A DNA stretch of 64,000 bases from Rugalucina vietnamica (Eukaryota; Mollusca; Bivalvia; Lucinida; Lucinidae). The stretch is taken from NCBI GenBank assembly GCA_964017185.1, contig OZ024875.1, positions 48,067,986 through 48,131,985 of the forward strand, written 5' to 3'. Both the position numbers and the translations under genes were made by a program. The notes under the pieces were generated by a model, which saw only the letters and a list, made by a program, of their open reading frames with translations, had not been told where the DNA came from and ran no database searches. Position 1 is the stretch's first letter. The number at the start of each line of letters is the position of its first letter. Shown piece after piece: positions 9,101 to 29,236 of the stretch.

Positions 9101-9246
9101 AACATGATTTCCGATTTTATTCAGACTGGCTTGTAATGACATTATGATTAACTAAGTTTTCTTCGATGTCAATTCAATCTAACCTAACAAGTTTACCACA
9201 TTATACAGTTTATGCTGAATCTGAATGGTTTACTGTTGATTCTTGA

Positions 9247-9290
9247 TATCACAGTAGCCCATAATCCTTTGCGCGGACGTGACATCCGGT
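9247..9290 (+). repeat. left terminal inverted repeat of the ISL2EU-like element
   Basis: This 44-bp block matches the complement of 29193-29236 at 42 positions. The mismatches are at repeat positions 11 and 22. It contains CCCATAATCC and GCGCGGACGTGACATCCGG. Similarity stops beyond CCGGT. Confidence 0.85.
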
Positions 9291-9353
9291 TAAGAATCGC
9301 CATCTTGTAAACAGTGTAATCCGATACACAACAGAATTTGACAATAAAATACA
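9291..9353 (+). other. possible noncoding first exon of the YqaJ gene
   Basis: Directly inside the left end is CGCCATCTTG, a YY1-type word. AAATACAG followed by the donor GTAAAA comes at 9354. The next good acceptor before the YqaJ start codon is TTTTTCAG at 13023. A promoter in the terminal repeat with a short untranslated exon would explain this layout. It is inference from splice signals only. Confidence 0.3.
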
Positions 9354-10079
9354 GGTAAAATAAAGGTCGTTTAGTTAAAGTTTGCTATTCCAAACATTAA
9401 AAGAAGTATTTGTTTGGCAATATATGATGATGGCTCCTTTCAGTTAAGCCAGATAAACCATTAATTCGACACCGAAATTGCCTTAACATTGGCGGGTGGG
9501 GTATTCGAATATTCGGCACCCGGGTCCAAAAAGAACTTATATTTAAACGAGAACGTATGGAATTTTATCTTATATTTTCTTTTAAAAGTAGTAACCAATA
9601 ATTAAGGAATGAAGTATTAAATAGTTTTCTGTTGATAGCACTGTTTTTTGGGGTGTTTTGTAAGTTCGAACTTAGGCCAATTTTGACCAATAGAGTTCGT
9701 ACCTAGAAATTATAGCATTTGTACTGCAGACAACTAATTATTATTTACATTTTTAGTTAGTCATCTGACTTGTAATGGTGCTAATAGATACCATGTAATG
9801 TATAACTTGATGTGGTTGGCCAAATTGGTAACATGTTGCCATGAATTTAGATGGGTGTTTATTCATTCTCACAATCATGACAAATGGTCAACCTATACGT
9901 TGATTTGCGGTGCTGACAACTGTTTGAGGGGTTTAACGCTGATTTACCTGAGACAAAAAATGGCAGCGACCAGTAAATAAATTGTTGATTTTTCATTTTT
10001 TGTTGTGTTGACGCTGTACAGAAAAACAAGCAACATGTCAAAGGGACTATGATATTATGTTATGCACTAGTAATTGTAA

Positions 10080-10340
10080 CCAGCCCCCCGCCCCCACCCC
10101 CCACCTCAGCCCCAGGCCTGGGGAATAGAGGGAACTTTGACTTTTGGTCCAGCAAATCCCCGCTAAAAGCCCCACCCTGTGGAGACTGCTCGTTGGTAAA
10201 ACCACTGCTGTTTTCCCCGCAGCCTGCTATCTTTTCATTTCATGGCCCTCTTTGGCTATATAAAGCAAACCCTGGGTATTTCCCCCACACTGCGGTGGCA
10301 AAACTTTGGTCAAAGCAGCGATAATTCTGGCTCCAAAAAA
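10080..10340. repeat. dispersed repeat, inverted copy of 36023-36295
   Basis: A C-rich start is followed by TTGGTCCAGCAAATCCCC, CCTGCTATCTTT and GGCTATATAAAGCAAACCC. The stretch near 36023-36295 contains the complements in reverse order (GCTTTATATAG, GATAGCAGGCT, GCTGGACCAAAAG). It is an interspersed repeat of unknown class within the transposon. TATATAAAG here is not evidence of a promoter. Confidence 0.7.
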
Positions 10341-11587
10341 ACCTTGGTAGAAAATCTCTCGCCATGCCAAAACTAGCGAGAAATTATGACGTTTCTGTGG
10401 GAAAACTGGCAAAATGGTTTGTGAAAATAAATGTTTTGTACGAGATTTTTCGTCCCATTTAGTCAATTTCAATGAGATTTTCGGCCAAAAAATGAGAGAA
10501 TCTCTCACAATCTCCCCAGAAAATAATCCCTGTCAAAGCACTGTTCATTTCCACGGCTATCCCCCATCCTCCCCTGGGTCTGGGGGCAGTGGTTACAAAT
10601 ATGCATTAGTTTTAAGAATATGCCATGCACCTGGTGGTTGATTCAAGCCTTTAGGGATGGTTTTGCATATAAGCAATTAGAGATGGTTTCGAGTACCCAC
10701 CCAAAGGGTTAGTCATTTTGTTTTAATCATTTACCCCGCTTGATCTGTAACTGACTGTATTTTCCAACGCCTACATAAATCATCAGCAGCAGGGCATATT
10801 CACAAAATATACATGTATATTTCTACATTTAGCATATGGCATGCTTTTAGAAAGAGTATATATGCAAATATGGACGAAATAGAACCACTTCGTCATTTTA
10901 AGCACCATCAAACTTGCGTGAAACCCACCATATCAGCGTACAGATTGACCAGTGTGATTCTTTTCATTTACTTCAGGTGCATTTACCACATTTTCCCCTG
11001 CACTAGGGGGTAGGAGGCTAATGGAATTTGGAAGATTAGATCCCTGCCTATTTCCACTACCATCTCCCGCCCTCCACCATTAGTTGAGAAGGGTGGGGGC
11101 AATGGCTCTGGTTACATATATATAGTGTTAAAGAAATTTAACATAAGCACCGGCATAATTCGTATAACAGTGGCCGCATTGTTTATTGTCTCCTCCCCGA
11201 CAGACTGAATCCTGTTTTAATTGTTTTGTTAATGGAACACAGATCCAATATGACCTTGCCATTGATATGTTTACAAAGTGGCATTATAATGAAAATATTT
11301 GTTTGGCCATTCTGTTAAGTCTTATTGGAGCAGAGTTTTTTTTCTAACACTGTCAGTCACTTGTAAACAAACCACTGCAACTCAAAACAAGCAGTCTCAA
11401 AGACTGAAAAGCTAAAAAAATCTCTGCGGTTAACTGATACCTGTGTTTGTGGTTGCTGCTTTAAAGCAGCTGATCTGTGTCTGTTTTTCAATAACATGTA
11501 TTTATATAAGGCATAAAAAAGTTTCTCAGGCCCTAGCTTTTTTTCTGGCGCAAAAAAAAAAAAAAGTGTCCTCATTGTGTCAAACTC
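10341..11587. other. no gene or named repeat seen
   Basis: Frames are short and split, and no domain is recognisable. A CCCCATCCTCCCCTGGG stretch (10562) and a GGGTGGGGGCAATGG stretch (11091) hint at decayed G-rich repeats. A fragment with AAAGCAGCTGATCTGTG near 11461 resembles the core of the GAGCC hairpin elements. Confidence 0.4.
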
Positions 11588-11819
11588 GAGCCGCAACATG
11601 AGAAATCATGTCTTCGGGGTTTCCCACAAGTCTGCCACAAACCGGCCTGTGCAACTACAGAAGAGGACTTAGCTTGTAATTGTAGATTTAACAAGAGGAT
11701 TTGTACTATCCATATACATGTAGCTGAAACAAAGGCACTGATCAGCTGTGCCGTGTGCAGCTGATCTGTGCCTACGGTTTTGAATAGGCAAGAATCTGGT
11801 TTTCTCATGACATGGCTCT
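11588..11819 (+). mobile_element. GAGCC hairpin element, copy 1 (diverged)
   Basis: It starts GAGCCGCAACATGAGAAA and ends TTCTCATGACATGGCTC, the two ends being rough inverted repeats. The internal hairpin GCTGATC...GATCAGC is recognisable but degraded. The flanks do not match, so the target duplication has been lost or the ends are altered. Family description is under the copy at 15297. Confidence 0.7.
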
Positions 11820-12120
11820 TATTATTATTTCATGTGTTTTAAAATAGATTTTAACTAGCTTTTTGGCAAAATTTGTTCAAAATAAACCACAAACATAATT
11901 TGTACATAGATTCCTTCATATTTGATGCAAATCTTAAGTAGTATATATATATATATACTTGGTATTGGCCGTTTGCAGAAAATAAAATTGGCCTCATTCA
12001 ATTTTGTAGAAATAAAAAAAAAGCTTCCCTCATCTGCTCTGACATGTTTTTTTGTTTTTGTTTTTTTCTAAAAAATGTGGCCAGAGAAACTATTTTTTTG
12101 TCCTAAAAAGCATTTTTTTT

Positions 12121-12934
12121 ATCGCACCTGCTTATAGCAGGGTGGGATATAGGAGTTCAAAATTCCGTTCGTTCGTTCGTCCGTCAATATTTACGTCGAA
12201 GTTTAGTTTTCTCGATATCAGAGATAGCTGTGAGTCTGAAACCTTGCATAGTAATTGTCCCTGACACACCGTTCAAGCACGCGCCTTAACCCGGTGCCCT
12301 TGACCTATATTTCACGGTCCACTGACTTTGAAAATTTTTACATCTAAGTTTGGTTTTCTCGACATCAGAGATAGCTGCAAGTCTGAAACCTTGCATAGTA
12401 ATTGTCCTTGACATACCCTTCAAGCACGTACCTTAACCCGGTGCCCTTGACCTATATTTCACAGTCAACTGACTTTGAAAATTTTTACGTCGCAGTTTGG
12501 TTTTCTCTACATCAGAGATAGCTGCGAGTCTGAAACCTTGCATAGTAATTGTCATTGACATACCCTTCAAGCACGCACCTTAACCCGGTGCCCTTGACCT
12601 ATATTTCACGGTCCACTGACTTTGATTTTTTTTTCGTCGAAGTTTGGTTTTCTCGACATCAGAGATAGCTGCGAGTCTGAAACCTTGCATAGTAATTGTC
12701 ATTGACATACCCTTCAAGCACGCACCTTAACCCGGTGCCCTTGACCTATATTTCACGGTCCACTGACTTTGAAAATTTTTTCGTCGAAGTTTGGTTTTCT
12801 CGACATCAGAGATAGCTGCAAGTCTGAAACCTTGCATAGTAATTGTCACTGACATCCCTTCAAGCACGCACCTTGACCCGGTGCCCTTGAACTATATTTC
12901 ACTGTCTATTGACTTTGTCCGATGCAGGTGCGAT
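12121..12934. mobile_element. inverted-repeat element with a core of five 147-bp tandem units
   Basis: The ends are perfect 11-bp inverted repeats, ATCGCACCTGC at 12121 and GCAGGTGCGAT at 12924. Between them five units repeat with exact spacing: the word GCATAGTAATTGT recurs at about 12246, 12393, 12540, 12687 and 12834, each 147 bases apart. A TTCGTTCGTTCGTCCGTC microrepeat precedes the core. No protein frame is expected. This design, short unique ends around a tandem core, resembles the bivalve pearl-type non-autonomous elements, but family assignment is inference. It lies in the presumed intron before the YqaJ coding exon. Confidence 0.8.
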
Positions 12935-13056
12935 ATCGACCTCCGCGGAGTTCTTGTTTGTGGTGATGTAGCTCATATTATGCAGCAAAGTAAAATCCTG
13001 ACACCCATTTCATTTCTTTTTCAGACAGATAACCAGTTTAGAGGTATGAAGTCAAG

Positions 13057-15225
13057 ATGCCACCAAAAAGGGTTACTCTGGGACCTGAGCCACCTAAACC
13101 AAAAGAACGCCGTGTGCTAGCTGAAACCAACAAAAGACTGACATCCTTCAATGATGTTGCTGCATTAAAGGCAGTTGAACTGAAGCAGCTGTGCAGATCC
13201 CATGGGATTAATGAAACGTATCCGAAGAAAGCGAAGCAAATTTTTGTGTGTCATGTCCTAGGACTGTCTACAACTGGCCATGCCATCACTGAATCTAAAG
13301 TGTCTGAACATTTATCCAATGCACAGGCAGAAGAGCTGGAACAACTCACTATTAAGAGACTATGCCAGATCGTGAACTGGACTAAAGACCTCACTAGTGT
13401 TCCAGATGTGGAAGAAAGTTCTGTGAAGAAATATCTGCTACAAACAAATTGTCTTACAAAAGAGTCAGCAAGAACGTATAAGATCACACGACCCTATCAG
13501 CTGAAGTCAGGTGTCCATTCCATGAGATATTATGAAAACATGGACTCGGAAACATTTTGTATTATTACATCCAGAGTGAATCCTTCGCAGTCCACTAGTC
13601 CAGAAGAAGTGAAGGTTGTGTTTGCCATAATAGACAAAATTACAGGAATGCCATATGGTGGTTTTTGTACATGTACTGTTGGGTATTCAGAGAGGTGTGG
13701 ACATATTGGTGCTACCTTATTCAGACTTTCAGACCTGGTAGCTAGTGGTGTAAAGGAGATTCCAGATGATGACAGTTCTGTGACTTCTCAACTGTGCAAA
13801 TGGACTGATCCCAAAGGGGCAGCATCAGATCCCTCAATCATGGACGAGTTGACTATTTCCAGTAAGACAAAACCTGTCAGACGTACCCTGGGCGACTTCG
13901 GAAAAAAAGTGGCAAACCCAAATCCTCCAACTTATGACGCCGTTTTGCAGTTGAAATCAGCCCTAGCATCAGCGACTCAGCATCTCGGCCAGTACTGTCC
14001 AGCTGTTCATGTGTTGAACTGCAGTCGATTCAGTGTTTCTCCTTCCATGGAACCAAGTGTTGTATGCGAATCGCTACCTGATCATCTTGACATTGACAGC
14101 CCCCTCATCGCATACAACAAAGAAGTTTCTGTGGAGTCATTACCAATGTCAATAGTGAACATACCATGTGAAAATGTTGACACAGACACCTTCATTAAGA
14201 AAATCAGTTATAGTGAAGAAGACATTCAGAAAATTGAATCTGTAACTAGGGGACAGTGTAACAATGAGCATTGGTTTGAACAACGTCAGGGGGCCATAAC
14301 AGCATCCAAGTTTGGTAAGGTACTGAATGTGATTGAGAAAAACAAGTCAACATGTGATTCCTTATTGAAGGAGATACTGAGAGACACCTCATATAGAAAA
14401 GGAGCTAAAGTGACTGTGCCAGCTTTGAAATGGGGACTGACACAGGAGAAGAAGGCTAAATCTTTATATCTCGGTAAATTCCAGCGGTTTCACTCTGATT
14501 TGACACTGAAGGAAGTTGGCCTAGTTGTGTATCAACCATACCAGTTCATCCGGGCCAGTCCTGACGGTATTGTGTCATGTAAATGCCATGAGAGCAGACT
14601 TCTCGAGGTTAAATGTCCTTATAGTGCCAGATATATGACAATTGCTGAAGGTGTATTTAACAAGAAAATTAAGTACCTGGAGAGTGTAAACGGACGATAT
14701 GTGCTGAAAACAAATTCCCCTGAAGGATATTATGAGCAAGTTCAAGGCCAGATGGCAGTACTGGGACTAAAGAGCAGCAATCTCTTTGTATGGACTGTGA
14801 AAGACAGTGTGACAGTGCATGTCCCATTTAATCAGCAATTCTGGGAAGACAGACTTCTACCAGCGTGTTTGAAGTTTTTTAGAGTACATGTTGTGCCCCG
14901 ACTGCTGGCACGTGCAGGCCCTGTGTGTATTGTGTCACCAGCACATGATGATGATGATGTTAGTGTAACTGTAAGTCAATTAGGTTCTGAAATGGCGGAA
15001 GAGACAGTGGAGTTCAGATGCGGGCAGTGTCAGAAACTGTTACCGGACAATGAAATATTAGCTGACAATTCTAATGCAAGTGTTGGTTGTGATTGTCCTA
15101 ACTGTGAAGGTTCCTGTAGTGTCTGGTTTTGCTGGCCGTGTGCTAAGTATGATGAGGAGTACCAGGAATCTGGGACGGACTGGTACTGTCCTACTTGTAC
15201 TAGAGACTGTGACATTGTGTACTAA
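13057..15225 (+). CDS. SWIM zinc finger / YqaJ-type nuclease / PHD-like protein of the transposon
   Basis: A single open exon encodes 722 residues. An acceptor (TTTTTCAG) ends at 13023 and the ATG at 13057 is the first long-frame start. Residues ~28-75 look SAP-like. At about 203-222 FCTCTVGYSERCGH is a SWIM zinc finger (CxC...CxH). From ~400 to 620 is a YqaJ/lambda-exonuclease-like PD-(D/E)xK nuclease: GAITASKFGKV, WGLTQEKKA, SPDGIV with Asp503, LLEVKC with Glu517 and Lys519, then YYEQVQGQM with Gln563. All expected catalytic residues are present. The tail (~655-720) has paired cysteines (CGQC, CPNC, CWPC, CPTC), resembling a PHD finger. It probably cuts or resects DNA during transposition, in the nucleus. 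It faces the transposase gene 6 kb away. No frameshift is seen, so it is intact. Bivalves carry many relatives; a domesticated role cannot be excluded. Confidence 0.9.
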   Translation: MPPKRVTLGPEPPKPKERRVLAETNKRLTSFNDVAALKAVELKQLCRSHGINETYPKKAKQIFVCHVLGLSTTGHAITESKVSEHLSNAQAEELEQLTIKRLCQIVNWTKDLTSVPDVEESSVKKYLLQTNCLTKESARTYKITRPYQLKSGVHSMRYYENMDSETFCIITSRVNPSQSTSPEEVKVVFAIIDKITGMPYGGFCTCTVGYSERCGHIGATLFRLSDLVASGVKEIPDDDSSVTSQLCKWTDPKGAASDPSIMDELTISSKTKPVRRTLGDFGKKVANPNPPTYDAVLQLKSALASATQHLGQYCPAVHVLNCSRFSVSPSMEPSVVCESLPDHLDIDSPLIAYNKEVSVESLPMSIVNIPCENVDTDTFIKKISYSEEDIQKIESVTRGQCNNEHWFEQRQGAITASKFGKVLNVIEKNKSTCDSLLKEILRDTSYRKGAKVTVPALKWGLTQEKKAKSLYLGKFQRFHSDLTLKEVGLVVYQPYQFIRASPDGIVSCKCHESRLLEVKCPYSARYMTIAEGVFNKKIKYLESVNGRYVLKTNSPEGYYEQVQGQMAVLGLKSSNLFVWTVKDSVTVHVPFNQQFWEDRLLPACLKFFRVHVVPRLLARAGPVCIVSPAHDDDDVSVTVSQLGSEMAEETVEFRCGQCQKLLPDNEILADNSNASVGCDCPNCEGSCSVWFCWPCAKYDEEYQESGTDWYCPTCTRDCDIVY

Positions 15226-15296
15226 TTACTTAACAGAAGCCTACAGTTACAGTAATTGAGATTTAAGAGATTATCATGAGAGAAAACCTGTTAAAT

Positions 15297-15530
15297 GAGC
15301 CGCATTGTGGGAAAACCAACAATGTGGTTTCCTAACAGGTCCGACACAAACCGACCTGTACAAGCACAGAAAAGAACTAAAAGCTTGAAATTTTGGTTTT
15401 AAGTAGGAGAGGAATTGTACTATCCAAGTAGCGAAAACAAAGGCGCTGATCAGCTTCACAGTAACTGTGAAGCTGATCAGCGCCTTTGTTTTCGCCTATG
15501 CAGATTGTTTGTTTTCCCATGAGGCGGCTC
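15297..15530 (+). mobile_element. GAGCC hairpin element, copy 2 (best preserved)
   Basis: A 234-bp element with ends GAGCCGCATTGTGGGAAAAC and GTTTTCCCATGAGGCGGCTC, inverted repeats of one another. It is flanked by a perfect AAAT duplication (15293-15296 and 15531-15534). Near its right end a palindrome at 15431-15495 has 31-bp perfect arms around a 3-base loop. No coding frame exists, so it must move through another element's enzyme. About ten copies or fragments lie in this window; five show 4-bp duplications made only of A and T. Confidence 0.88.
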
Positions 15531-16195
15531 AAATGATGACATTTTAGTTTTTGAGCATGAAAAAGTTCAGACTCAGCTGAGTTGAGCATGCAAAAGGTTT
15601 TATGATTTATGTACATGTATGAGCTGCTGCAGGGCAAACCCAACTAAAGCTACATGTACTTACAAAACTGGTTTTGGGAATGGTTAGAATGCACATAAGT
15701 TTGACCTAAAGCTGATCATCCATTATCATGAACCAGCTCATAATTAATTTTTGGGCTGTAAGTTTTAAGAAGCTGGTAATTACTTTGTCATTTCTTTGTC
15801 GCAACTTATATTTACATGTAGCCATAATGTGGAAACGTCTTCCATGATTCTGATCTGTCCCAACACAAACTTGGTTGTACCCGAACAAAATTTGGCTATA
15901 GAATTAGAATGAAAAAATTTAAATTAGGATGGGTGGTGCTATCAAGGTACCAACATGTATTTACATGTACTTACAATAGCTTAAAATGTGCTTTTAATCA
16001 GTGTATTTGTTTAAAACCACTGTTGCCATCATCATCAGTAAAGTTATGAAATGTAAATGTGTATGAATTATGTAGTGCTGCTTTTGAGTACAAAAAATCT
16101 AGTGCTAAACATGTGATTTTAATTTTAAAGTATTATAAACCAAAAATCCTTTGATTTTCAGTATGTCTTTCAAATCTTGACAAATAAGCCCCAGT

Positions 16196-16390
16196 ATTGC
16201 ATATTGTGGTTTAACGTCTCAGTCAACAATTTTTTCAGCCATATAGGGACGAAGCCATCAGTACATGGATATTAACCAGTATTCTAGAGAATGAATGTGT
16301 CCTGCTCAACGACTCAACATAGTGCCCAAAGTCGGGGTTGAATCATGGACCCCTTGATTCAGAGTCTGATGCTTTACCACTGGGACAACA
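16196..16390 (-). mobile_element. tRNA-derived SINE, minus strand
   Basis: On the minus strand a tRNA-like head reads TGTCCCAGTGGTAAAGCATC (A-box region), a CAGACTCTGAATCA anticodon arm like tRNA-Gln, and ATTCAACCCC as B box. Downstream comes TTGTTGACTGAGACGTTAAA, resembling the conserved tail shared by many mollusc SINEs. There is no intact tRNA cloverleaf with matching acceptor arms, so I call a SINE rather than a tRNA gene. Confidence 0.7.
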
Positions 16391-16607
16391 TGCTCCTGAT
16401 TTTGATTTATGCCTTCATCAATGTGAGATTTGTTGAGGCACATCAAGACAATTTGGTCCAGTGTGGACAGAAGTATGCTATTTATAAAGTCATTCATATA
16501 TTATGTCGATGTTTATATATATGTCAATTTTTAAACCAAATGTCTTTCATTCATGTTTATATAGATTTATATGTCAATGCTGATCATTCATGTTGATATA
16601 GATTTAT

Positions 16608-16837
16608 GAGCCACCTCTTGGGAAATCCAATGAGGATTTCTTACCAGGGTTGACACAAACTGGCCTGTACAGGCACAGAAGATGGCTAGAGGCTGGAAAT
16701 TTTGGATTTAGAAGTAGAGGATTCATACTATCCCTGTAGCGAAAACAAAGACGCTGATCAGCCTACCGTTACTGCGAAGCTGATCTGCGCCTTTGTTTTC
16801 ACATATGCAGATTGTTGGTTTTCTCATGTGGCCGCTC
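16608..16837 (+). mobile_element. GAGCC hairpin element, copy 3
   Basis: It runs from GAGCCACCTCTTGGG to CTCATGTGGCCGCTC, with TTAT duplicated at 16604-16607 and 16838-16841. The internal hairpin is present but one arm carries substitutions (GATCAGCCTACCGTTACTGCGAAGCTGATC region). Confidence 0.85.
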
Positions 16838-16969
16838 TTATGTGTGGAGGTTGAAACCACGTCTTTCATTCATTTTTATATAGATTCATATATGTCAATG
16901 TTGAAAAACAAATGTCTTTCATTCATATTTTAAATAGATTTATATTTCAATATACATGTATTAAATGTT

Positions 16970-17110
16970 CTGAAAACCTGGCTCAAGGGCTTGTGGCCAG
17001 GCAAGACAAAAACCAGTAAAGGATTTAGCCACTGCTGAGAAGCTGTGCATTGGTTTTCTGCACCCATTTTTGCATATAAGCGTACTTTCTCATGTGGTAG
17101 CTAAATTTAT
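16970..17110 (+). mobile_element. GAGCC hairpin element fragment (decayed)
   Basis: The words ACCTGGCTCAAGGG, GGCCAGGCAAGACAAA, GAGAAGCTGTGCATTGG and TTTCTCATGTGGTAGCT follow the order of the family but are shortened and altered. No flanking duplication is visible. Confidence 0.4.
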
Positions 17111-17556
17111 ATGAGCAAGGCTGTACAGCATGCAAGTTGTGAATCAACTGTGAGCTGTTATACACATACAAACCTAGCAATAAGTGGGTGGAAATGGAAG
17201 CATGGCAAATTTGATATAAGATAGCATATTTGTTTGTAAATATTTATCAAGCTTGATACTTTTGCTATACTGGAATTTTTTTGACTGTGCCTGTTTCCCT
17301 CTGACATTATCATAGACAAGAATTTGTTGATCAGAATGCTTCAAATAAGTGTTTACAAGATGGTAAACAATATATGACCACATGCTTCACATGGCACTGC
17401 AAAAATGTGAAACAAATAAGTGTCCCTATTCTAGTACTTACAAAACTTTATTATACGAGGTCAGCTGGCACAGTCAAAGAAACTAACAGCCTGTATTTTT
17501 CTCTAGCAACAGTCAAGGTAGTGAAAATTGGTGGACACATCTGACAAATAATATAT

Positions 17557-17797
17557 GAGCCACCTGGTGGGAAAACCAACAATGTGGTTTCTGAACAGGT
17601 CCGACACAAACAGACCTGTTCAAGCACAGAAAACAGCTAGAAGCTTGAAATTTCGGATTTAAGTAGAAGAGGAATCGTACTATCCAAGTAGCGAAAGCAA
17701 AGGCGCTGATCAGCTTCGCAGTTCGCAGTTACTGCGAAGCTGATCTGCACCTTTGTTTTCGCCTATGCAGATTGTTGGTTTTCCCATGTGGTGGCTC
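17557..17797 (+). mobile_element. GAGCC hairpin element, copy 4
   Basis: The ends GAGCCACCTGGTGGGAAAAC and GTTTTCCCATGTGGTGGCTC are flanked by ATAT on both sides (17553-17556 and 17798-17801). In the hairpin the TTCGCAG word is duplicated, making a larger loop than in copy 2. Confidence 0.87.
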
Positions 17798-18654
17798 ATA
17801 TGTATCTTTTCCAAGTGTTGGGTTGGACGGCTGTCCATAGTGCTAACGGACCTGAATCTGCCTTCAGTGCAATGATAAAGATGATGTACTGGATTGGAAT
17901 ATAAATGTAACACATGTTGTGAGAATATGTTTATTTTTATATATAGAATTAGTACTTACTTATAAAGCAATAGTTCGCCAAAGAATTCAATTTATTATAG
18001 AAAAAAAGAAAATAAATAGTAACATAAAAACAAAACCTGTGTTGTGGATTTCATCAATTTCCATGTAAAAAAAAGGAAACTAAAGTAAACTGAGCCGTGT
18101 CATGAAAATACCAGCCTTTCATATTTATCCAAAACAATGATGCAGATCAGCTTATTTCAGCTGCCTACATGTTGGTGATAGTTTTTTTGGCTTCGTGGAT
18201 TGTATAAGCCTAATAAAAATCTATCTTCTATAGCTGCTCAGACAGGTTTGTGTACGAACAGCAAAATGATCCCAAAGACAGTTTCTTTCATGTCATGACT
18301 CAAGTTAAATCTATCCTGTAGTGTACACAGAACTTTCTGTTTACTAGGCAAGACCCATACTACAGTGCTCAGCAGTAAACATGGCAGTGATGTCACGGTT
18401 TTACTGTTAGGAATATGAATAAAATAAATACATTTGACCAATAGGAACATACACACCATTCATATTTTTAACGGCAAATTTCTGAAGTCACTGCCATGTT
18501 TAACGCAGAGACCTGTACATTCCTTGTTTAAGAAAAACTATAGATATAAATAGTAGAGGCGATGATGGAATATGTGTCCAATCAAGTATGGCTGATAACC
18601 ACTGTTCGGCAAATTTTCCTGGTACATAAGCTGGGCCAAAGAAACCTGATTTTT

Positions 18655-18810
18655 AGCTCAGCTGGGCCTAAGGCTCACCATGTGAGTTTATAGTATACTC
18701 ATAATCTGGTGTTCATTCGTTGTCTGCCCACAATTTCAAATGCTATGTCCTAACATGACTGAAAAATTGTTAACTGGGATGTTAAGCCACAAATCAAAGA
18801 AACCAACCTT
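18655..18810 (+). repeat. fragment of the 'agctcacctgagc' family followed by a SINE-like tail
   Basis: TAGCTCAGCTGGGCCTAAGG and GTGAGTTTATAGTATACTC resemble the opening of the large elements at 37048 and 39182. After it, AAATTGTTAACTGGGATGTT and AAGCCACAAATC resemble the SINE tail at 16196. This looks like two old insertions side by side. Confidence 0.5.
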
Positions 18811-20715
18811 ACTTCACATGGATCATCATTAAGGAATAAGGAAGGAGAACATAAAATACATATATGTACATTAATTAGATGTTTTTGTTGTTGTTGTTTA
18901 ACAAAGACACAAATAAGTTGCACAGAAAAAGCTAGGACAATCAGTGCCCTTCGTATGGCCTCAAAGCAAGCACAATCCCTCTGCTTTATTTCAAGCATGT
19001 AGCTGTGCAGCCTGCTTTATGTCAGACTTTGAACATGTACCAAATGTTGCATCAACGAAATGGATTTAGTGACCTAACATGATATTTGTGTAATAACATA
19101 TTATTTATTTATTTGAGTGACACATATCAAATTTATACAACTACATGTACATACAATATATACAGATTTACAACCAACTTCTCAAAAATATCTGGTCACC
19201 CAAAATTGTAAGAATTATGAATTGAATACTTTTGAATAAATTTGGTTGATATGTTTTTACTATTAAATACTCTATTCCCATCCTAAAAATGATTTTTGAT
19301 GTGTAAGAGGTTTTAGCAGCTTATGTAATACATATATTATATGATTTTTAAATTGACAAAAAATAATGTAATCGAGTAGTTGAAGCACATGTGGGTGACC
19401 TGATTTTTTTTTTGAGGAGTATATTTGATATCCTAAGGGTTGCCTCACTTGGTCCGAAAAAATTTTTCTCACACTGACATCTTGGCGCGCGGTCTCTAAT
19501 GACAGTATCCATCTATAAAAATTTGAAAGTTGTAGTGACACACCAATCAGAACTTAATTAAACATAAAATACACTTCTGGAATCTGGTTTAAGACTGCCC
19601 AAAAAAACATTGATGTGGACAAAATCATTATAAAGTAATTTGACTTGAATCTGGTATTTTCAAAACTTCCTGACATTTCCACATACCAATAATTCCAAAT
19701 TTCCCTGACATTTTGCATTCACTGACCATGAAAAAATTTAAAGTTTCCTGACTTCCCTGACATGTGGCAACCCTGAATTCTTGTCAGTAAAGACTTACAT
19801 TTGAGACAGCAATTTTCTTTAAAGCAGAATACATATATCACAGATTTACAGAATGTACATTAATTATATACTTAAAATACTTTGAAACAGAATGAGTAAA
19901 AGCAACTACCAAATAGATAAATATAAGTCTAGAAATCTAAGTTTTGCAATAAAACTTTCCTTTCATATGAAAGATTTTACACTATGTACTTAAGACAGTA
20001 CCACAGCTGTAAAACAACCTTAAATATACTATAGTATTAAAATCAAATCAGTGCAATATTTGTAAAAAATGACTGAGGCTAAGAGATTTTATATCACAGG
20101 CAATATAATTACTTTAAAATTGCAATAAGAAGTGAATCCTTAATAAGAAAACGAAAAAGAATTGCCTAAAACTAAGACAAATTAGTGATGCAAACCTTGG
20201 ATTATTTATTATCATAGGCATATGGTAAAACTATATACACATTTAGCAATAAAACTGGGTTAACCCATTTATTTAATATTTATATTAGTTAAAATATGCA
20301 TCATTTACAAATTATAAATGTAAACATGTATCCAAAAACAAAGACATAAGCTGAAGGCTATTTGCAGCTGATCAGCACCTTCATTGTGATAACCTAGTAC
20401 AATCCTCACCCCCTTGAGTTCATAAAGCTTTCAGTTTCATGCTCAATACCAACAATCAATAAGCTTTTTAACATTTATCAAAAGAATTAATGATAGGTTT
20501 TGAACCAGAAATTTACAAATTGATCCAGGCTTGTGATTGCTTACATTGATTACTTAAGTACTAGCAGTTTATATTTGATGCTTAGCTCGGTTGAGCCTGA
20601 AAAGTCTTATTCAGGGCATATTCTATCTACACGTATTTAGTAAGAATAGAGGGAACAGGAATCGACGCAATTAAATTAAAAGTCACAACATAGACACCGG
20701 ATGGGAAAGAAAATA
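18811..20715. other. AT-rich stretch without a recognised gene
   Basis: Open frames are short and of low complexity. At 20340-20410 AAACAAAGACATAAGCTGAAG and GCAGCTGATCAGCACCTT look like a decayed GAGCC-element core. Nothing else is recognised. Confidence 0.45.
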
Positions 20716-20898
20716 CAGGTCAACCTCATTATAACGCTATCTTTGGGGCCCATGGAAACAGACTGTGTTATAGGTGAACCGTGTTATAATGTGGTTATTT
20801 ACAATAGGCATATAGCAAAATAATTTGGGAGCCATGACATGACCTTGTAATATTGAAAACCGCACTATAATGAGGTACGTTATAATGAGGTTGATCTG
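20716..20898. mobile_element. mariner-type miniature inverted-repeat element
   Basis: CAGGTCAACCTCATTATAAC at the left and its near-complement GTTATAATGAGGTTGATCTG at the right bound 183 bases. Both sides carry TA (20714-20715 and 20899-20900), as expected for Tc1/mariner insertion. It has no coding frame. Internal copies of the GTTATAAT word continue the inverted symmetry. Confidence 0.8.
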
Positions 20899-21046
20899 TA
20901 CATAAAAAAACACAACAAAACATTGTTACAACAACACACTCGAAGAGTAGAATGACTAGCTCTTTCCCAACAAGGTAACCATCCGGCCAAGTTTCAACAG
21001 GAACAAAATCCTCAGTCAATCATTTTGTGATCATCACCTCATATAT

Positions 21047-21268
21047 GAGCCGCAACATGGGAAAACCAACAATCTGCAAAGGTGCAGATCAGCTTCACAG
21101 TAACTGCGAAGCTCATCAGCGCCTTTGTTTTCGCTACACAGATAGTACAATTCCTCTACTTTCTAAAGCCAAAATTTCCAACCTCTAACCATCTCCTGTG
21201 ACTGTACAGGCCGGTTTGTGTAGGACCTGGTCGGAATCCAAATTGTTGGTTTTCTCATGCACAGGCTC
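21047..21268 (-). mobile_element. GAGCC hairpin element, copy 5 (opposite orientation)
   Basis: The ends GAGCCGCAACATGGGAAAAC and TTCTCATGCACAGGCTC are flanked by ATAT (21043-21046 and 21269-21272). The hairpin lies next to the left end here, so the element is inserted in the other orientation from copies 2-4. It lies just downstream of the transposase stop codon. Confidence 0.87.
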
Positions 21269-21380
21269 ATATAGTTTGTAAAGCCAAAACTTCTTTCTGT
21301 TGTCATTGTACATAATGTATGTTTTTTTTGTATCAGACCTAGTCAGATAATTGATAATTCTATTACATTAACAGCTTCCC

Positions 21381-24103
21381 TCAATGTTTTTGTTTTACGA
21401 TTGGCATTTGGAAGTTAGTCAGATATGCACAAACCACAAATATCTGTTCTATGATATCTACCATATTCAATCTAATGATACGTTCCAAGAGATAAAATGT
21501 TTTAATACGCTGGATGATTCTCTCAATGTGTATACGAGCTTTTGCCACATATTCAGAACGTTCGGCTTCTTTTGAGGTCATTTGTGGGCGGTCTCTACCT
21601 TTGAATTCGGGTATCACTAATTTCACACCCCGTTTCTTCAAGTCACTCGCAATATTGAATCCTCGGTCTGCCATCACGGTTTGATCTGGTTCCAAGCCTT
21701 CTATCAACCCTTCACTATTCATTGTAATATCTTTATCAGAGGCTCTTCCACCCCAGGCTCTAGACACATAGTTCACTGCTAAATTTGGAGATAGTCCCAC
21801 AAGAAACTTAACCGTGTCATGATGCTTGTAGTTTGAAAATGTCTTTTTCCTGGCATCTAAGTTTGAGGCTCTTTGTACATATAATTCAGTACAGTCAAGT
21901 ACCACTTTTAAGTTTGTGAATGACTCGTAACACTCCGCGATATCAGTATCAGAACTTTGCATTTCAAACAGTAACTTGAGTTCGACACAAAGAAAGTTGA
22001 TCCACGTACTGAAGACACTCGATATATGACTTACACTAGTGTCAAAGGATCGGGCTAAATCTTCATTGAAGTTTCCGGTTTTCAGTTTCACCAGTACCAG
22101 GAACAGTTCTTCTTCAAATGAAAATTTCCGAGCTGGACCCTTTATAGGAGTACCAGTAGAACAGTCACTAATGTTGGTTGTAGATCCTCTCCAATATTTA
22201 AGATTACCATCACATCTTGTCTTTAGATACTCTGTTAACGCATGGAACACCTGGTAGTTTGGCAGGTTGGTATAGAACTGAAACTTATTATCATCCTCTT
22301 TTACATTTTCCAGTCTTAACAGTTTGGATTTTAACGACTCGTTCTCTTTTTGTAATTTTTCCAATTCACTTTCAACCTCCACATCAATGTCACTAGAAAG
22401 GCTGTCCCGACCGGTATAGATATAATCATGATCAGGCACAGTTTGGTTGAATGAGTAGCTCAGTTTTCTTTTGGGACGACCAGCTTGCAGATTTTCACTG
22501 TCACTGTCGCTTCTCTTTCTCTTCTGGGAAAATGCCTGCTCTACGGGTGATGGTGTGTCATATCCTGAAATAGTATATGATATTTGCTATTACAAATCTA
22601 AGAAACATAAAGAAAACCTACCTTTTCTTTATGCAAAATTTAAAGTGCAGACCAGTAATTACCTGTAATGCAACCAACTTTCTTACTTTGCATATTGATG
22701 CAACATTGCATACCATGTGATGAAAATGAATGTGGTGCCGTGATATGACTGACTGAGCAACAACTGACAGTGAAGCAATTAACACTTTGGAGTCAGTTGT
22801 AGCCAAATTAATTCCACTTTCTCATCATCACACTCCATTTTGTCATATGCCATGATGTTGCATCAATCTGCACAGTAAGACATTTGGTGGCATCACAGGT
22901 ATATAGGGTGAATAACGGCTGAACTGACCAGCGCATTTGTATTTGCTCAAGTATTATTAATCTGAAAATTCAGCCAATGTTCAAAATTTTTTGCTGCACA
23001 TGATTTGGATTATGTTATATATAATTCAACTTTTTCTACATTGACCACCGACAGTTTACAGGGATTAATTAGGCCCACATGGGCGGATCCAGAATTTCTG
23101 GAAGGGTGGTTCAAATCCATCAAAAGGGGGTTCGTTTTCAACAAATTACCTAACTTTTCATAAATTTCGCCATGAAAATGAAATAATTTGATCCCAGAGG
23201 GGGGTTCAAGCAGACCACCCGAACCCCCTCTAAATCCACCACTGGCCCAGCAATTTAATATTTTGCCCAAAATTTGTGCAAGTGATGTTACTTTTTTTTT
23301 ACGGTTATCATAATAAATATTGACTCACCTGCTTTCCTGGCACTCTGTGTCATACGGGGTTTTGTCTTGTTCCTGGGAAAAATACTTGGAACAAAAGCTG
23401 GGTTGTCTGGAAAGTCCACCTTCTTCCCTGAAATTTATATCCAAGATGTATGAGATATGAATTTTAGGAAAAAAAGCCGCTCACTCGGCTTACAATATGT
23501 GGGGTAAGTGTCTAGAATTGCTAGGTTTTTTCCTACCATGGTTGTCTTAACTTTCTGTTTCTTGTGAAGTAATTTCAAATAACTCAATCTGAATATTAAA
23601 TATGTCACTGTTTATCCAAAAACCTGTCAGCGAATTAGGTTTCACAATATTAAAACGTGTGACAAACTGAGACATTGTTTACGAAAGTACGAAAACTGGT
23701 GGTGAAAAAATAAAAAAGTACGAACCGGTTTAGGCGCGAATTTCATAGTTAAAATATGTATTTTGCACTGTGTTAAGTTTGTAAAAAGACAAAACAAACC
23801 TCCGACAAAATGTTCCGAGCAAACAGTTGACGATTTTGAGGGCTCGAATGGAACGGTTCTGACTTTAGTTGAGCTGACATCTGTTTCGTCCGGTAATCTT
23901 ATCTCGACATCACGGCGGATTCTGTTTAGCCAAAGTTGTCTTCTTTTCGCATCTGATGGGAATTTGTAGAAGGAAACCTGTTTTCCAAGACGTTTACATT
24001 TCCCTCGAGAGTTAGAACAACCAGGAACACAACAAAAGTCACCAGAAGAGCCATTAACTTCCGGTTCCGGTGGAAGACGAACTGAAAAATTTTGACAGCT
24101 CAA
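21381..24103 (-). CDS. THAP-DDE transposase of the ISL2EU-like element, three exons, intact
   Basis: Minus-strand exons 24103-23800, 23427-23329 and 22564-21381 join with GT-AG borders to 1587 bases, 528 residues and a TGA stop. Residues 24-98 form a THAP zinc finger (CCVPGC...CSEHF, with FPSD and LWLNRIRR); AFVPSIF after the first splice is the THAP AVPTIF-like end. A basic stretch (QKRKRSDSDSE, GRPKRKLS) and a leucine-spaced coiled coil (ELEKLQKENESLKSKLL) follow. A helix-turn-helix (FSFEEELFLVLVKLKTG) precedes the DDE_Tnp_4-type core: Asp in VVLDCTELYVQ, Asp in MADRGF, Glu in RIHIERIIQRIK. The catalytic triad is complete and no frame is broken, so it may be active or recently so. It should bind the terminal repeats by its THAP finger and cut there. 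Upstream, its promoter region is displaced from the right end by the LINE. The ATG at 24103 is the first in frame; an upstream untranslated exon is possible. Confidence 0.88.
23069..23258. mobile_element. GGCGGATCCAG/CTAAATCC miniature element in transposase intron 1-3 region
   Basis: It begins ATGGGCGGATCCAGAATTTC and ends CCCCCTCTAAATCCACCAC, roughly inverted. Two others of the same type lie at 36505-36685 and 48421-48600. It sits in the intron between the second and third transposase exons, so it need not harm the protein. The superfamily is undecided (PIF/Harbinger- or hAT-like). Confidence 0.65.
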
Positions 24104-24351
24104 AGTTTTCGAATTTTTAAATTGAAATACTGCAGAAATATAGAGAAAAATTGCTGATGATAATTCAGAATTGGGTTATTAAAGGGTTGTATTTGACTAT
24201 ATTGGCGATTGGTGCACTGGATGGTTCAACGAAACAAAGATTTTGGAGGATATCGAGAGGAATCTTGGAAAGCGGCCGCCAGCGATTTTGGATTTTTCAT
24301 TTGTTTTGCTTGATCCTTTTAAGTACCCTTGTCCCCCCTTGTAGTTTAAAT

Positions 24352-25296
24352 ATGGCAACACAAAAGAAGGGCCAGAGAGCTCCGTCAGAAGCTGATGTTT
24401 GGCAATGTGAAGGGTGTAAGAAAACATTCGTGGATAAAAACTCAAGGCTCTTAGTATGCGAATACTGTGACAATGTTTATTGTATAGAATGCCTACAGCT
24501 GACGGCAACGGCGTATAACGTATGTAAGAAAACAAACCTGCACTGGTTTTGCCCGAATTGCGAAGACAAGGTCATGAAAAATATTAGAAGTGACAGAGAA
24601 ATAGAGGAACGTTGCGCAGAATTTCTACAAAAAATTGAAGGTCGCGTGGGTGCCCTCGAAAGCCAAATAACAACTAAAGTTGATGAGAAACAGGTGAGAG
24701 AAATTGTAGAAAATATGTCAACGGAGGGTCAGGCTAAAGAGTCCCATGGTCAATCGCAGGAAACTGTGCTAGCTACAGTAAAAGACTGTCGTGATAGCAT
24801 TAACCGAGAATCAAATTTCATTATGTTTAGAGTAGAGGAACTGGATTCGGATGAACCACTGGAGCGAAAGGAAAACGATGTGAAATTTGTAAATGACTTT
24901 TTATACTGCATAGATGCCAGGGAGGTCGAAGTGGCAAATGTTACAAGAATTGGAGCAAGGTCAAAGAACAAAAATGAGAAAAAAGACAGACCGATAAAAG
25001 TCACATGCAAAAGTGCTGAACAAAAGCGTGAAGTCATGCGTAAAGTAGTTAATTTGAAATTCATCACAGAGGGGTCGGTACATGAGCGTTTTAAGAAGGT
25101 TAGTGTCTCGCACGACATGTCAAAAGCCGAAAGACAGGTAAATAAGCAGAAGTTAACTGAGGCTAAATTAAAAACTGCAAATGAAAGCCAAGAGGGAAAA
25201 TTCATCTACAAGGTACGCGGGCCACCGTGGAATCGGCGGACAGTCAAGCTTCGGGTGAGAGAAGACACACTCGAGGAGGGGGTGGAGGCAGATTAG
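24352..25296 (+). CDS. LINE ORF1, PHD-like finger plus coiled-coil protein
   Basis: ATG at 24352 (MATQKKGQRAPSE) opens a 314-residue frame. A cysteine/histidine cluster (WQCEGC, LLVCEYCDNVYCIECL, HWFCPNC) at about residues 17-70 forms a PHD-type zinc finger. A long charged helix-rich region and a small RNA-binding-like fold (FIMFRVEEL...VTRIGAR) follow. ORF1 proteins of this kind bind the element's RNA. The same frame is open upstream to 24151 but lacks a recognised domain there, so I take the later ATG. It overlaps the start of ORF2 by about 70 bases in a different frame. No break is seen. Confidence 0.82.
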   Translation: MATQKKGQRAPSEADVWQCEGCKKTFVDKNSRLLVCEYCDNVYCIECLQLTATAYNVCKKTNLHWFCPNCEDKVMKNIRSDREIEERCAEFLQKIEGRVGALESQITTKVDEKQVREIVENMSTEGQAKESHGQSQETVLATVKDCRDSINRESNFIMFRVEELDSDEPLERKENDVKFVNDFLYCIDAREVEVANVTRIGARSKNKNEKKDRPIKVTCKSAEQKREVMRKVVNLKFITEGSVHERFKKVSVSHDMSKAERQVNKQKLTEAKLKTANESQEGKFIYKVRGPPWNRRTVKLRVREDTLEEGVEAD

Positions 25297-28200
25297 AGGG
25301 ATCAAAGAACAATGTAAATAGTAATGTAAATACTCGTTCGTCAGTTGACGTTTCAAATTTGTTTTGTTATTATACAAATGTTGACAGTTTATCAAATAAG
25401 TGGGACGAATTTTGTGCTGACATTAAAAGTAAAGGCAGGGAGCCTGATATTATTATGTTAACTGAAGTGCTACCAAAAAACTTTAGGTTTCAACTAACCA
25501 GGGCAGAGATTGCTTTACAGGGATATGAAATGTTTCCTGAATCATTTCCGAATAATATGTCCAGAGGAACAGTTATTTATATTAAAGAGACTCTGAAAGC
25601 AGTTGAGGTAAAATTTGACACAAATTTTGAAGAGAGTACATGGGTAAAAATCAACCTTAAAGGTACAGACTGTCTTCTCTGTGGGTGTATTTATAAAAGT
25701 CCATCAAATTCTGCTGTAAACGAGGTGCATTTGAGAAACTTGTTAAAACATGTAGCTGAAAATAGACAGTTTAGTCACGTGATTGTGGCAGGGGATTTAA
25801 ATTATCCTGACATTAAGTGGGAAAACTGTAACGCTGAAAAAGAGGAGAGTGAACTATTTCTTGAATGTCTTAGGGACTGTTTTTGGTACCAGCATGTACA
25901 AGACTTCACACGGTTCAGAATAAATCAACAACCTTCTGTGTTAGATCTAATCATGACAAATGAAGAGGATATGGTTGTAGACCTGGAATATTTATCCCCA
26001 TTGGGAGCCAGTGATCACAAAGTACTAACTTTTCAGTTTAATTGTTACTGCAGTCATACAAACAACTATAGTACACATTTTAATTACTATAAAGGTGATT
26101 ATGAGTCATTGAGAGAAGAGCTGAAGATAAACTGGAAAGATGAACTAGGCACAGGTGATGTGAATAGCATGTTAAATAATTTTATGGAGCGTGTGACCGC
26201 GGCCAAGGAGAAATATATCCCACGTTCACGACCATTCCCGCGTAAAGGAACAGTACCTTTGTGTAAAAATACAGTTGAAGCCATTAAGCGAAAACACAGA
26301 ACATGGACAAGGTTCATTGAATCTCGTGATGAAAATTCTTATAAACTGTACGCAAAAGCAAGAAACAAAGTGAAATGGCTTGTAAGGAAAGAAAAATGCG
26401 CTCGTGAGAAAGAAATTGCTCAGACATCAAATTCTAACCCTAAGAATTTCTGGAAATATGTAAACTCGAAACGCAAAACAACGTCAAGTATATCGGAATT
26501 GCATACTAAGAGACAAGATTCAACTTTTATTGCTGAAAGTGATGAGGATAAAGCCGAGGTATTGTCAGACTTTTTTAGTAGTGTTTTCACTAAAGAACCA
26601 AGTGGTGAATTGCCCAATTTGAAACAAAGAAATTACACAACTAAATCATCTGACGATTATTTTGAAATAGAGACAGTTAGAAAGTTATTGACTGGTATAA
26701 ATACATCAAAGTCACAGGGTCCTGATGGTTTACACCCAAAGTTGATATATGAACTGGCAGATGTAATTTGTGAACCTTTAACTATGATTTTCAACAAGTC
26801 TTTTGAATCAGGTATTGTACCAGATGAATGGAAAAAGGGACAGATAACTGCATTGTTTAAAAAGGGAGACAAAAAGCTAGCATCAAACTATCGCCCAGTC
26901 AGTCTTACCAGTGTTGTAAGTAAAATATTTGAAAAACTGATTAGAACTAAGATTGTTGATCAAATGAATAGTAATAACTTGTTTAGTGATAAACAGTTTG
27001 GTTTTATCGGGGGCCGATCTACAAGTTTGCAGCTATTGACAGTACTGGATAAATGGACAAAAATATTAGATGATGGGGGCACTATAGATGCGGTGTATAT
27101 GGATTTTATGAAAGCGTTTGATAAAGTCCCCCATCGTCGTCTCATCGTTAAACTACGGGCTTATGGAATGAGTGAAAAAATGTGTAATTGGGTGGAGAAC
27201 TTTTTATATGATAGAAGGCAGCGAGTACAAGTAAACGGACATTTTTCAGAATGGGCGAAGGTTACTAGCGGTATTCCTCAGGGTTCAGTATTGGGCCCCG
27301 TTCTGTTTGTGATATATATAAATGACTTGCCGGATTCAGTGATGTCAGAAATAGCCCTTTACGCCGACGACACTAAATTGTCCAAAGAAATACAGTCAGA
27401 CTCTGATGTAATTGTCGTACAGGACGATTTATTTATCTTGCAAGATTGGTCAGATGACTGGTTGCTATTATTTCATCCAGATAAATGTATAGTTATAAGG
27501 ATTTGTTTACCCTGGAAATGTAACATTGATAAGCCTGAATATTTCATGCGAAAATCAGATGGTTCTATAGTCAAACTGGAGGTCAGCAGCTGTGAAAAGG
27601 ACATTGGAGTTTATATTGATGAGCATTTAACATTTGAAACACATATTGTCACTAAAGTGAATAAAGCTAATAGTGTAATGGGTATAATTAGACGATCATT
27701 TACTTTCTTGGATGAAGAAATGTTTGTACTGTTGTTTAGGGCTCTCGTACGCCCTATATTGGAGTACGCCCAATCCGTCTGGAGTCCTTATTTGAAGAAA
27801 CATATAGATATGATTGAAAATGTACAACGCAGATCAACAAAAGTAATACCAGGATTCAAAAATTTGACATATGAAGAACGATTAAGGAAGTTGAAATTAC
27901 CAACACTGAAATACCGTAGGCTAAGGGGGGATATGATTGAAGTTTATAAGATTTTACATGGAATCTACGATAAACGGGTAACAGCTGAATTATTTAAATG
28001 TCTCGGATCAAGCTCGGACGCGTGGTCATTCATTCAAACTGGAAAAACACAGATGTCGACTAGAAATACGTAAAAATTTCTTCACTTCAAGAGTGGTAAA
28101 TGTGTGGAATTCTTTAACGGAGAAAGTGGTTTGTGCACCAAGTGTTAACGCCTTCGAAAATCGCCTTGACAAGCTGTGGGCTGACCATCCGATGAAGTAC

Positions 28201-28326
28201 AACCCAGACATAGAATACAACCCATATGTGGCAAACCCGGGGACTGGAAATAGGAGACTTGCCACAGTACAGTCTGATGAGGAGCTGAACATAGAGGCCT
28301 CTGGCCTGCGTTCAGAATCAACATAG
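25227..28326 (+). pseudogene. LINE ORF2, endonuclease-reverse transcriptase, one frameshift near 28017
   Basis: From 25227 the frame runs 948 residues to a stop at 28071-28073. An apurinic-type endonuclease comes first (YYTNVDSLSNKWDEF, PDIIMLTEVLP, VAGDLNYPDIKW, LGASDHKVLTF). Reverse transcriptase follows with motif A YMDFMKAFDKVPH, motif B SGIPQGSVLGPVLF and the catalytic ALYADDTKL. The C-terminal family tail continues in another frame: TRGHSFKLEKHRC, FFTSRVVNVWNSL, to a stop at 28324-28326. A single extra base near 28016-28018 (the G run in TCGGACG) explains the switch. All catalytic motifs are intact, so the copy is young but its C-terminus is broken. It may be a sequencing error. Confidence 0.85.
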
Positions 28327-28374
28327 GTAAACATAGGTAGGTAATTATTTTTACCCAACATTTTGACACTGGCT

Positions 28375-28455
28375 ATCCGCACGACGGTCGTGCCGATAAC
28401 GCCGCTTATCGGCACGACCGTCGTGCGGATAAGCGGCGTTATCGGCACGACAGGG
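28375..28455. repeat. CpG-dense nested palindrome 1
   Basis: The palindrome at 28375-28430 has perfect 25-bp arms around CGCCGC. The same words (ATCGGCACGAC, GTCGTGCGGATAAGCGGC) then repeat in the next bases, so alternative hairpins can form. It is strikingly CpG-rich in an AT-rich neighbourhood and directly follows the LINE 3' end. Confidence 0.85.
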
Positions 28456-29002
28456 AAATCGATATTAAAATGTTAAAACTGTTTAGAAATGGGTACATTT
28501 TAAGTTGATAAATATTATACACTGGCTTCAAAACTGAAACAGAATATTACCCATGCAGGAATGTTTTACTTTTTAATTAACAAAATTATTATTTTGCTGA
28601 AATTGGCTTACCTGTGAATTTACCAGGACCTGAATTTACCTGTAAAAATCAGTCATGCGTATGCGTAAATGAGAAAATAACTATCGACTCGTAACCTAAA
28701 TAATAAAAGAATGTGGTAATCCAACAGAATAAATAGCCTTTGATTTTAACAATGGAGTATGGAAACATTTCAGTAACACAATTAAAAAGCATTTTACAAT
28801 AGTTATATTTTTCTCCGCTGTTAGAAATCTACTGTGATTCAGTTAACATCAGCTGGAACAATCAAAACAAACTAGTTTTCTTATTCGTAATTAACACAAA
28901 TGTTATTTTCGAATGTATACATATAGCTGAACACATAATTAATTTATTTAATGACAAATTAATAGCTTAATGCATACATGAGCTTGTTAGAAAATTTCAT
29001 AC

Positions 29003-29132
29003 TCCCGTCGTGCCGATAGCCAATACCTGTACCATTGGCTATCCGCACGACGGTCGGGCCGATAACGCTTCTTATCGGCACGACTGTCGTGCGGATAAGC
29101 GGCGTTATCGGCACGACCGTCGTGCGGATAGC
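29003..29132. repeat. CpG-dense nested palindrome 2, next to the right transposon end
   Basis: It uses the same words as palindrome 1 in more copies: GTCGTGCCGATAGCCAAT pairs with ATTGGCTATCCGCACGAC, and further arms pair across the AACGCTTCTTAT and AAGCGGCGTTAT spacers. It ends 60 bases before the right terminal repeat. It is another copy of the same motif, probably subterminal transposon sequence. Confidence 0.85.
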
Positions 29133-29192
29133 CTCAGCCCAACATTTTGGGTGAAGTGACGCGATCGGCCATTGTTGCGGAAGTCTAATTAG

Positions 29193-29236
29193 ACCGGATG
29201 TCACGTCCGCGCAAGGGATTATGGGTTACTGTGATA
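29193..29236 (-). repeat. right terminal inverted repeat of the ISL2EU-like element
   Basis: It is the complement of 9247-9290 with two differences. CCGGATGTCACGTCCGCGC and GGGATTATGGG are readable on the plus strand. The last element base is proposed as 29233, followed by AT. Confidence 0.85.

Follow-up and report, generated by a model that had tools for sequence, protein, structure and literature searches.

A 64,000-bp stretch of the Rugalucina vietnamica genome, here called the window (C7:48067986-48131985; 1.09-Gb genome, 47 contigs), contains a transposable element of the ISL2EU type, in which a nuclease gene and a transposase gene converge between one pair of terminal inverted repeats (TIRs). 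The element spans 20,002 bp, from 9241 to 29242 in window positions, which are used for the element throughout, and has AT on both sides; these limits were taken from empty sites and from bases shared by several right ends (Table 1). An earlier note, made from the letters of the window, had described a complete two-gene ISL2EU-like transposon with neither gene broken. The assignment was borne out by an AT duplication and by a THAP-HTH-DDE transposase and a YqaJ nuclease between the same ends. The completeness was not, and the element is very probably a single ISL2EU-type copy, recently crippled and not autonomous as it stands.

Table 1. Features of the element and its target site (window positions).
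Feature	Position	Strand	Basis
Left AT target-site duplication	9239..9240		Single AT at the junction in 10/10 fetched empty sites
Left TIR, 50 bp	9241..9290	+	44/50 identical to right end; inner 44 nt 95%
Nested dispersed repeat in left arm	10060..10316 (approximate)		39/40 scored left-arm matches, 83-92% identity; the 40th is the window itself
147-bp tandem array, 5 copies, upstream of nuclease gene	12186..12917		Repeat search
Nuclease gene, single exon, open, 722 amino acids	13057..15225	+	SAP-like start (weak), SWIM-type CxCx8CxH, YqaJ/lambda-exonuclease domain, cysteine-rich PHD-like end
Palindromic repeat resembling a miniature inverted-repeat transposable element, ~245 bp, 67 bp after nuclease stop	15292..15535		Repeat search; further copies ~16605-16844 and ~17550-17803
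Fourth copy of palindromic repeat, adjoining transposase stop	21037..21273		Same place in C9 copy over 21097-21273
Transposase exon 2, HTH_Tnp_4 and DDE_Tnp_4, including stop codon	21381..22564	-	Pfam, frame
Transposase intron, 1,235 bp, GT...AG, phase 1 both sides	22565..23799	-	Predicted
Remainder of transposase exon 1, THAP domain	23800..24056	-	No in-frame ATG before domain
Long interspersed nuclear element (LINE) in transposase exon 1: PHD-like first open reading frame (ORF1); ORF2 endonuclease and reverse transcriptase	24057..28343	+	Match to C13 copy, domains
Rest of insert, inverted arrays of 33-bp palindromic units	28344..29137		Repeat search
Detached first 35 bases of transposase coding sequence	29138..29172	-	Frame of 12 residues, then stop
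Right TIR, 50 bp	29193..29242	-	Match to left end; outer bases common to three copies
Right AT target-site duplication	29243..29244		Empty sites

A repeat search of the window identified inverted arms of 44 nt at 9247-9290 and 29193-29236 with 95% complementarity, in agreement with the matching 44-bp ends, 20 kb apart, of the earlier note; its span of 9250..29233 did locate the element, the exact limits lying slightly further out. A 33-place core of the end was searched in the whole genome with up to 3 mismatches and was found at 4 places, while a reversed control gave 0. These places were both window ends and single right ends at C9:29205531 and C12:12092785 (the C9 and C12 copies), and the proposed check for other copies with the same ends yielded two that have the right end. 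The right ends of the window, C9 and C12 share 9 bases past the arm (6 element bases, AT and one more) before entering unrelated flanks, and the terminus was consequently moved outward. The full TIRs measure 50 bp with an identity of 44/50; the left terminus reads AT/TCTTGATATCACAG and the right terminus AT/TCGCCTTATCACAG.

The two flanks were joined with a single AT (802 bases) and compared with the genome. All 40 scored matches, from 362 candidates, span the junction, 39 of them being nearly full length with identities of 95-98%. Ten of the 40 were fetched and each carries one AT exactly at the predicted point, in the context G/AT/A. The empty site with a single AT that had been anticipated was thus observed, at paralogous copies of the repeat that hosts the element. 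As the joined flanks match many repeat copies, the element landed inside a copy of a dispersed repeat; this repeat, represented by positions 8839-9240 and 29245-29644, is present in at least 40 copies at 95-98% identity.

The transposase contains DDE_Tnp_4 (E 2.3e-40), HTH_Tnp_4 (E 2.2e-12) and THAP (E 6.1e-12) domains by Pfam, and its catalytic D, D and E are conserved in 14/14 loci compared, some of which are near-identical; no solved structure matched at E 0.1. A gene of two exons is predicted, the first of which is interrupted at 24057-29137 by an insert of 5,081 bp, mostly LINE, which cuts off the first 35 coding bases. The C12 copy has no insert: past its right end comes a start codon whose frame stays open into the THAP domain, and from this comparison the window gene is split. 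The window frame from the transposase start codon encodes 12 residues and then stops, and the insertion point is without six bases that are present in C12. The LINE is 99.16% identical over 4,289 bp to the C13 copy, the match beginning at 24057, where the insert begins. The central claim of the earlier note, that both genes survive in a complete element, therefore fails: the nuclease frame is open as described, but in the transposase gene the start codon and the THAP exon now stand on opposite sides of the LINE-bearing insert. The first open reading frame of the LINE (24121-25296) itself encodes a PHD-like zinc finger (E 3.1e-4) with, by eye, a cysteine at the usual histidine, an odd parallel to the end of the nuclease. 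The arrays beyond the LINE match may represent a separate foldback insertion or the tail of the LINE.

It is very unlikely that the element is fully autonomous in spite of the insert, either through splicing of the insert from the transposase transcript in the manner of an intron or through use of another start. Of the combinations offered by the 2 donors and 5 acceptors considered at the insert edges, one GT...AG pair is in frame, but both of its splice sites appear weak by eye (donor AAT/GTTGGG; acceptor TTCGAAAACTTTGAG), and the presence of inverted repeats within the 5-kb insert also argues against its removal by splicing. As for another start, there is no in-frame ATG ahead of the THAP domain in the remainder of exon 1, and exon 2 offers no in-frame methionine until past the HTH match.

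The C9 copy harbours an open two-exon transposase of 489 amino acids with a start codon (C9:29208529-29211239), which is the only one of the window subfamily among the matches scored. This protein has a 4-residue gap just past the second catalytic D, a separate insert of ~3 kb lies before its start codon, and no nuclease match was found beside it within the fetched 30 kb. Of the C12 copy only a fragment is present, which runs from the right end through exon 1 into the intron. The window and C9 introns differ at 16/1,234 positions with 3 insertion or deletion (indel) events, and the 475 shared transposase codons show 6 synonymous and 2 nonsynonymous changes (nonsynonymous divergence, dN, 0.0018; synonymous divergence, dS, 0.0198). 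Assuming that 70-77% of random changes would be nonsynonymous, so few replacement changes have a binomial chance of 0.003-0.011 without constraint. Such a small number suggests that the transposase was probably working through most of the history shared by the two copies, and the data point to selection on the transposase while the family spread. The recent activity or selection proposed earlier is accordingly supported for the family, by two copies and 8 changes only, and not for this copy as it stands. That the family persists by mutual help, with the C9 transposase moving the 20-kb window element in trans, would be a rather unlikely arrangement: among the matches scored the window keeps both ends and a full-length nuclease and C9 an open transposase, but the 4-residue gap near the second catalytic D of the C9 protein counts against it.

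The nuclease contains a YqaJ domain (PF09588, E 1.7e-22) and aligns with lambda exonuclease over the SPDG and LEVKC motifs (E 7.8e-5). Its E, D and E-K motifs are kept in 14/14 loci compared, near-identical copies among them. A SWIM-type CxCx8CxH motif and a cysteine-rich PHD-like end are directly visible in the window protein. Over 14 aligned loci the SWIM motif was complete in 9, represented by its second half in 4 and absent from 1. The C-terminal end gave a weak PDB match to the PHD finger of ING2 (E 0.047), and the PHD histidine position is apparently a cysteine in the window (WFCWPC, compared by eye with WFHWKC in the related protein L002). Among 6 related nuclease stretches Pfam called SWIM in 1, PHD (E <0.001) in 2 and nothing in one; the protein L024 gave SWIM at 1.7e-4 and PHD at 5e-5, and L015 gave PHD at 7e-6. 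The SAP-like start was below threshold in the window (0.012) and in two relatives (0.014 and 0.0025). No description of a SWIM-YqaJ-PHD nuclease in a transposon was found in the part of the literature on ISL2EU and YqaJ transposons that was covered. Two 297-bp pieces related to the nuclease (90% and 87%) lie at C11:8499220 and C11:7441846. The stretches around them share 96% identity over 765 bp, and the pieces look like perhaps one captured gene fragment that was later copied.

The genome-wide searches scored 62 of 148 nuclease candidates and 103 of 274 transposase candidates. Of the 62 scored matches, the window nuclease alone represents its subfamily at full length. It is highly improbable that selection for a host function has kept this gene after death of the transposon. 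The open frame of so solitary a copy, beside a split transposase, would fit such a history, as would neutral simulations at 0.65-1.0% divergence in which frame survival was just 0.03-0.09 when the intron indel rate was applied; without indels, however, survival was 0.39-0.53, open nuclease frames are common in other families of this genome, and all nuclease paralogues are too distant for a dN/dS test. At 2% divergence the corresponding values were 0.002 with the intron indel rate and 0.15 without indels. The open nuclease frame alone is weaker evidence of selection than the transposase codon changes.

A scored transposase match lies within 20 kb of 53/62 scored nuclease loci, and the two genes converge in 53/53 of these, the median distance between them being 1,139 bp; this count takes in the window and near-identical copies and does not represent 53 independent events. 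The comparison used 62/64 nuclease rows, two second stretches of already listed loci being left out, and 103/103 transposase rows. A relative of 4,587 bp at C9:51478503-51483089 holds both genes convergently between matching 16-bp ends that are each bordered by AT, and a second copy of this family (C2:2432041-2436681) agrees; the right end of a third, on C13, was not found by exact match. Taken together with the empty sites, which define one insertion from 9241 to 29242, these pairs make it extremely improbable that the two genes derive from different elements and were bracketed by the matching ends by chance, even though no nuclease match accompanies the C9 transposase in the 30 kb fetched there and the right end of C12 adjoins no more than exon 1 and part of the intron. 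The ends of two related families begin AC and AG. No end resembling that of the window was found in 15 other related loci (best, 19/41 mismatches), for most of which only 1.5 kb beside the match was available, so that the ends may be located further out. The closest relative (C1:62.70-62.71 Mb) showed no convincing matching ends, its strongest inverted match lying in the dispersed palindromic repeat of Table 1.

Two other groups of ISL2EU-type copies were observed. The first comprises four copies at C9:59.10-59.13 Mb and one at C1:21.40 Mb, which are 98-99.98% identical over ~4.05 kb and likely represent a recently active family. At C9:59.10-59.13 Mb three copies stand head to tail at a spacing of ~5,650 bp and the fourth is inverted; two copies of the group share a left flank, which suggests tandem duplication, and the flanks of the others differ. 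The second family is represented by nine fetched copies, ~95-98% identical, with different flanks and, in most, the same AT-adjacent end. Deep co-inheritance of the two genes was considered and is not shown by these data. The nuclease and transposase distances compared were nearly saturated and had the window proteins as their anchor. For 13 families the Mantel r was 0.62, a value reached in 3/20,000 permutations, and for 11 families it was 0.50 (230/20,000); these first values were driven by recent duplicates. With near-identical families collapsed r was -0.05 for 10 families (30,151/50,000 as high), and with those 10 plus one close relative it was 0.25 (2,696/50,000 as high). The C1:21.4M locus was left out of the 14 prepared loci as a near-duplicate of C9:59.1M.

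The size of the element had been attributed to nested insertions, which was confirmed in kind by the nested repeats and the LINE-bearing insert. The palindromic repeat beside the transposase stop occupies the same place in the C9 copy, and at least one nested insertion was thus carried before the copies parted. With up to 3 mismatches allowed, the arm of this ~245-bp repeat occurs at ~101,000 places per genome strand, against 0 for a reversed control, and the repeat is also found in or beside several other ISL2EU-type loci.

The following history is proposed. The DDE transposase, guided by its THAP and HTH DNA-binding domains, would cut the element at its inverted ends, and the excised DNA would be joined into an AT dinucleotide within a copy of another dispersed repeat, generating the 2-bp AT duplication. 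This cut-and-paste reaction is inferred from the family, whereas the ends, the duplication and the empty sites are observed. The lambda-exonuclease-like nuclease, with its catalytic residues kept, would most likely act in end processing or repair around excision, a weak inference. At least one nested repeat was already aboard in the last common ancestor with the C9 copy. Later a young LINE inserted into transposase exon 1, downstream of the start codon and ahead of the THAP domain. The window copy thus retains good ends and a good nuclease gene without a normal transposase; it would be movable only if another copy supplied the enzyme, and it can probably no longer move by itself.

ISL2EU is placed in the PHIS, or Harbinger-like, superfamily, the groups of which are defined by the composition of the target-site duplication, AT in the case of ISL2EU (PMC4482050). 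Its members encode a THAP, HTH and DDE transposase and a YqaJ nuclease, have TIRs of 6-259 bp and average ~4.8 kb as autonomous consensus sequences; two intact open reading frames qualify an element as 'potentially active', and the function of the YqaJ partner is stated as unknown (PMC4482050). The authors of PMC9179366, who added transcription data from fish, knew of no reported proof of ISL2EU activity. The window element resembles this description in its AT duplication, its DDE/HTH/THAP transposase (the THAP exon being detached from the start codon), its YqaJ nuclease and its 50-bp TIRs. It differs in its length of 20.0 kb, in having one open gene, the nuclease, and a transposase split in exon 1 in place of two intact reading frames, and in the SWIM and PHD-like motifs of the nuclease, which the part of PMC4482050 describing the group does not mention.

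Several points weigh against the assignment and the history proposed above. Membership was judged from target-site duplication, gene content and TIRs, which fit the PMC4482050 description as far as that extends. The window ends begin TC, whereas ISL2EU ends usually begin GG, and the target is G/AT/A and not A/AT/T, both being secondary traits (PMC4482050). No second left end of the subfamily was found genome-wide within 3 mismatches of the core, and the left boundary therefore rests on one copy and the empty sites; the other matches in the 30-kb stretches fetched for C9 and C12 had 19-20/44 mismatches, equal to the chance level in the window itself, and the left-arm search was swamped by the nested repeat (40 scored of 2,963 candidates). 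The transposase gene model was derived from sequence only, the selection result depends on 8 changes, and Pfam called neither SWIM nor PHD in the window nuclease.

The element is a well-delimited new ISL2EU member, an insertion of this type that is defined to the base by empty sites, and it belongs to a family caught while its copies decay in complementary ways. As many families in this genome carry the convergent pair, the role of the YqaJ partner is testable on young near-identical copies, such as those at C9:59.10-59.13 Mb.

Compared with other systems, PIF/Harbinger elements generate a three-base TWA duplication and carry a Myb/SANT partner gene (PMC4482050, PMC9179366). The window element differs, as far as these sources describe that group, in its AT duplication and YqaJ nuclease partner, and Pfam gave no Myb/SANT match in the window proteins. 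The PIF/Harbinger transposase is a related DDE enzyme and a member of DDE_Tnp_4. The 4.6-kb relative at C9:51478503-51483089 resembles the window element in having its two genes convergent, AT at either border and, close to the end, a TTATC stretch such as the window right end carries; its 16-bp ends are of other sequence, and over the matched parts the proteins are 34% (nuclease) and 39% (transposase) identical to those of the window. The window nuclease resembles lambda exonuclease and YqaJ nucleases (PDB 1avq, 6m9k), with the SPDG and LExKC motifs aligned at E ~8e-5, and differs from them in its additional SWIM and PHD-like zinc-binding motifs and in being borne by a transposon.

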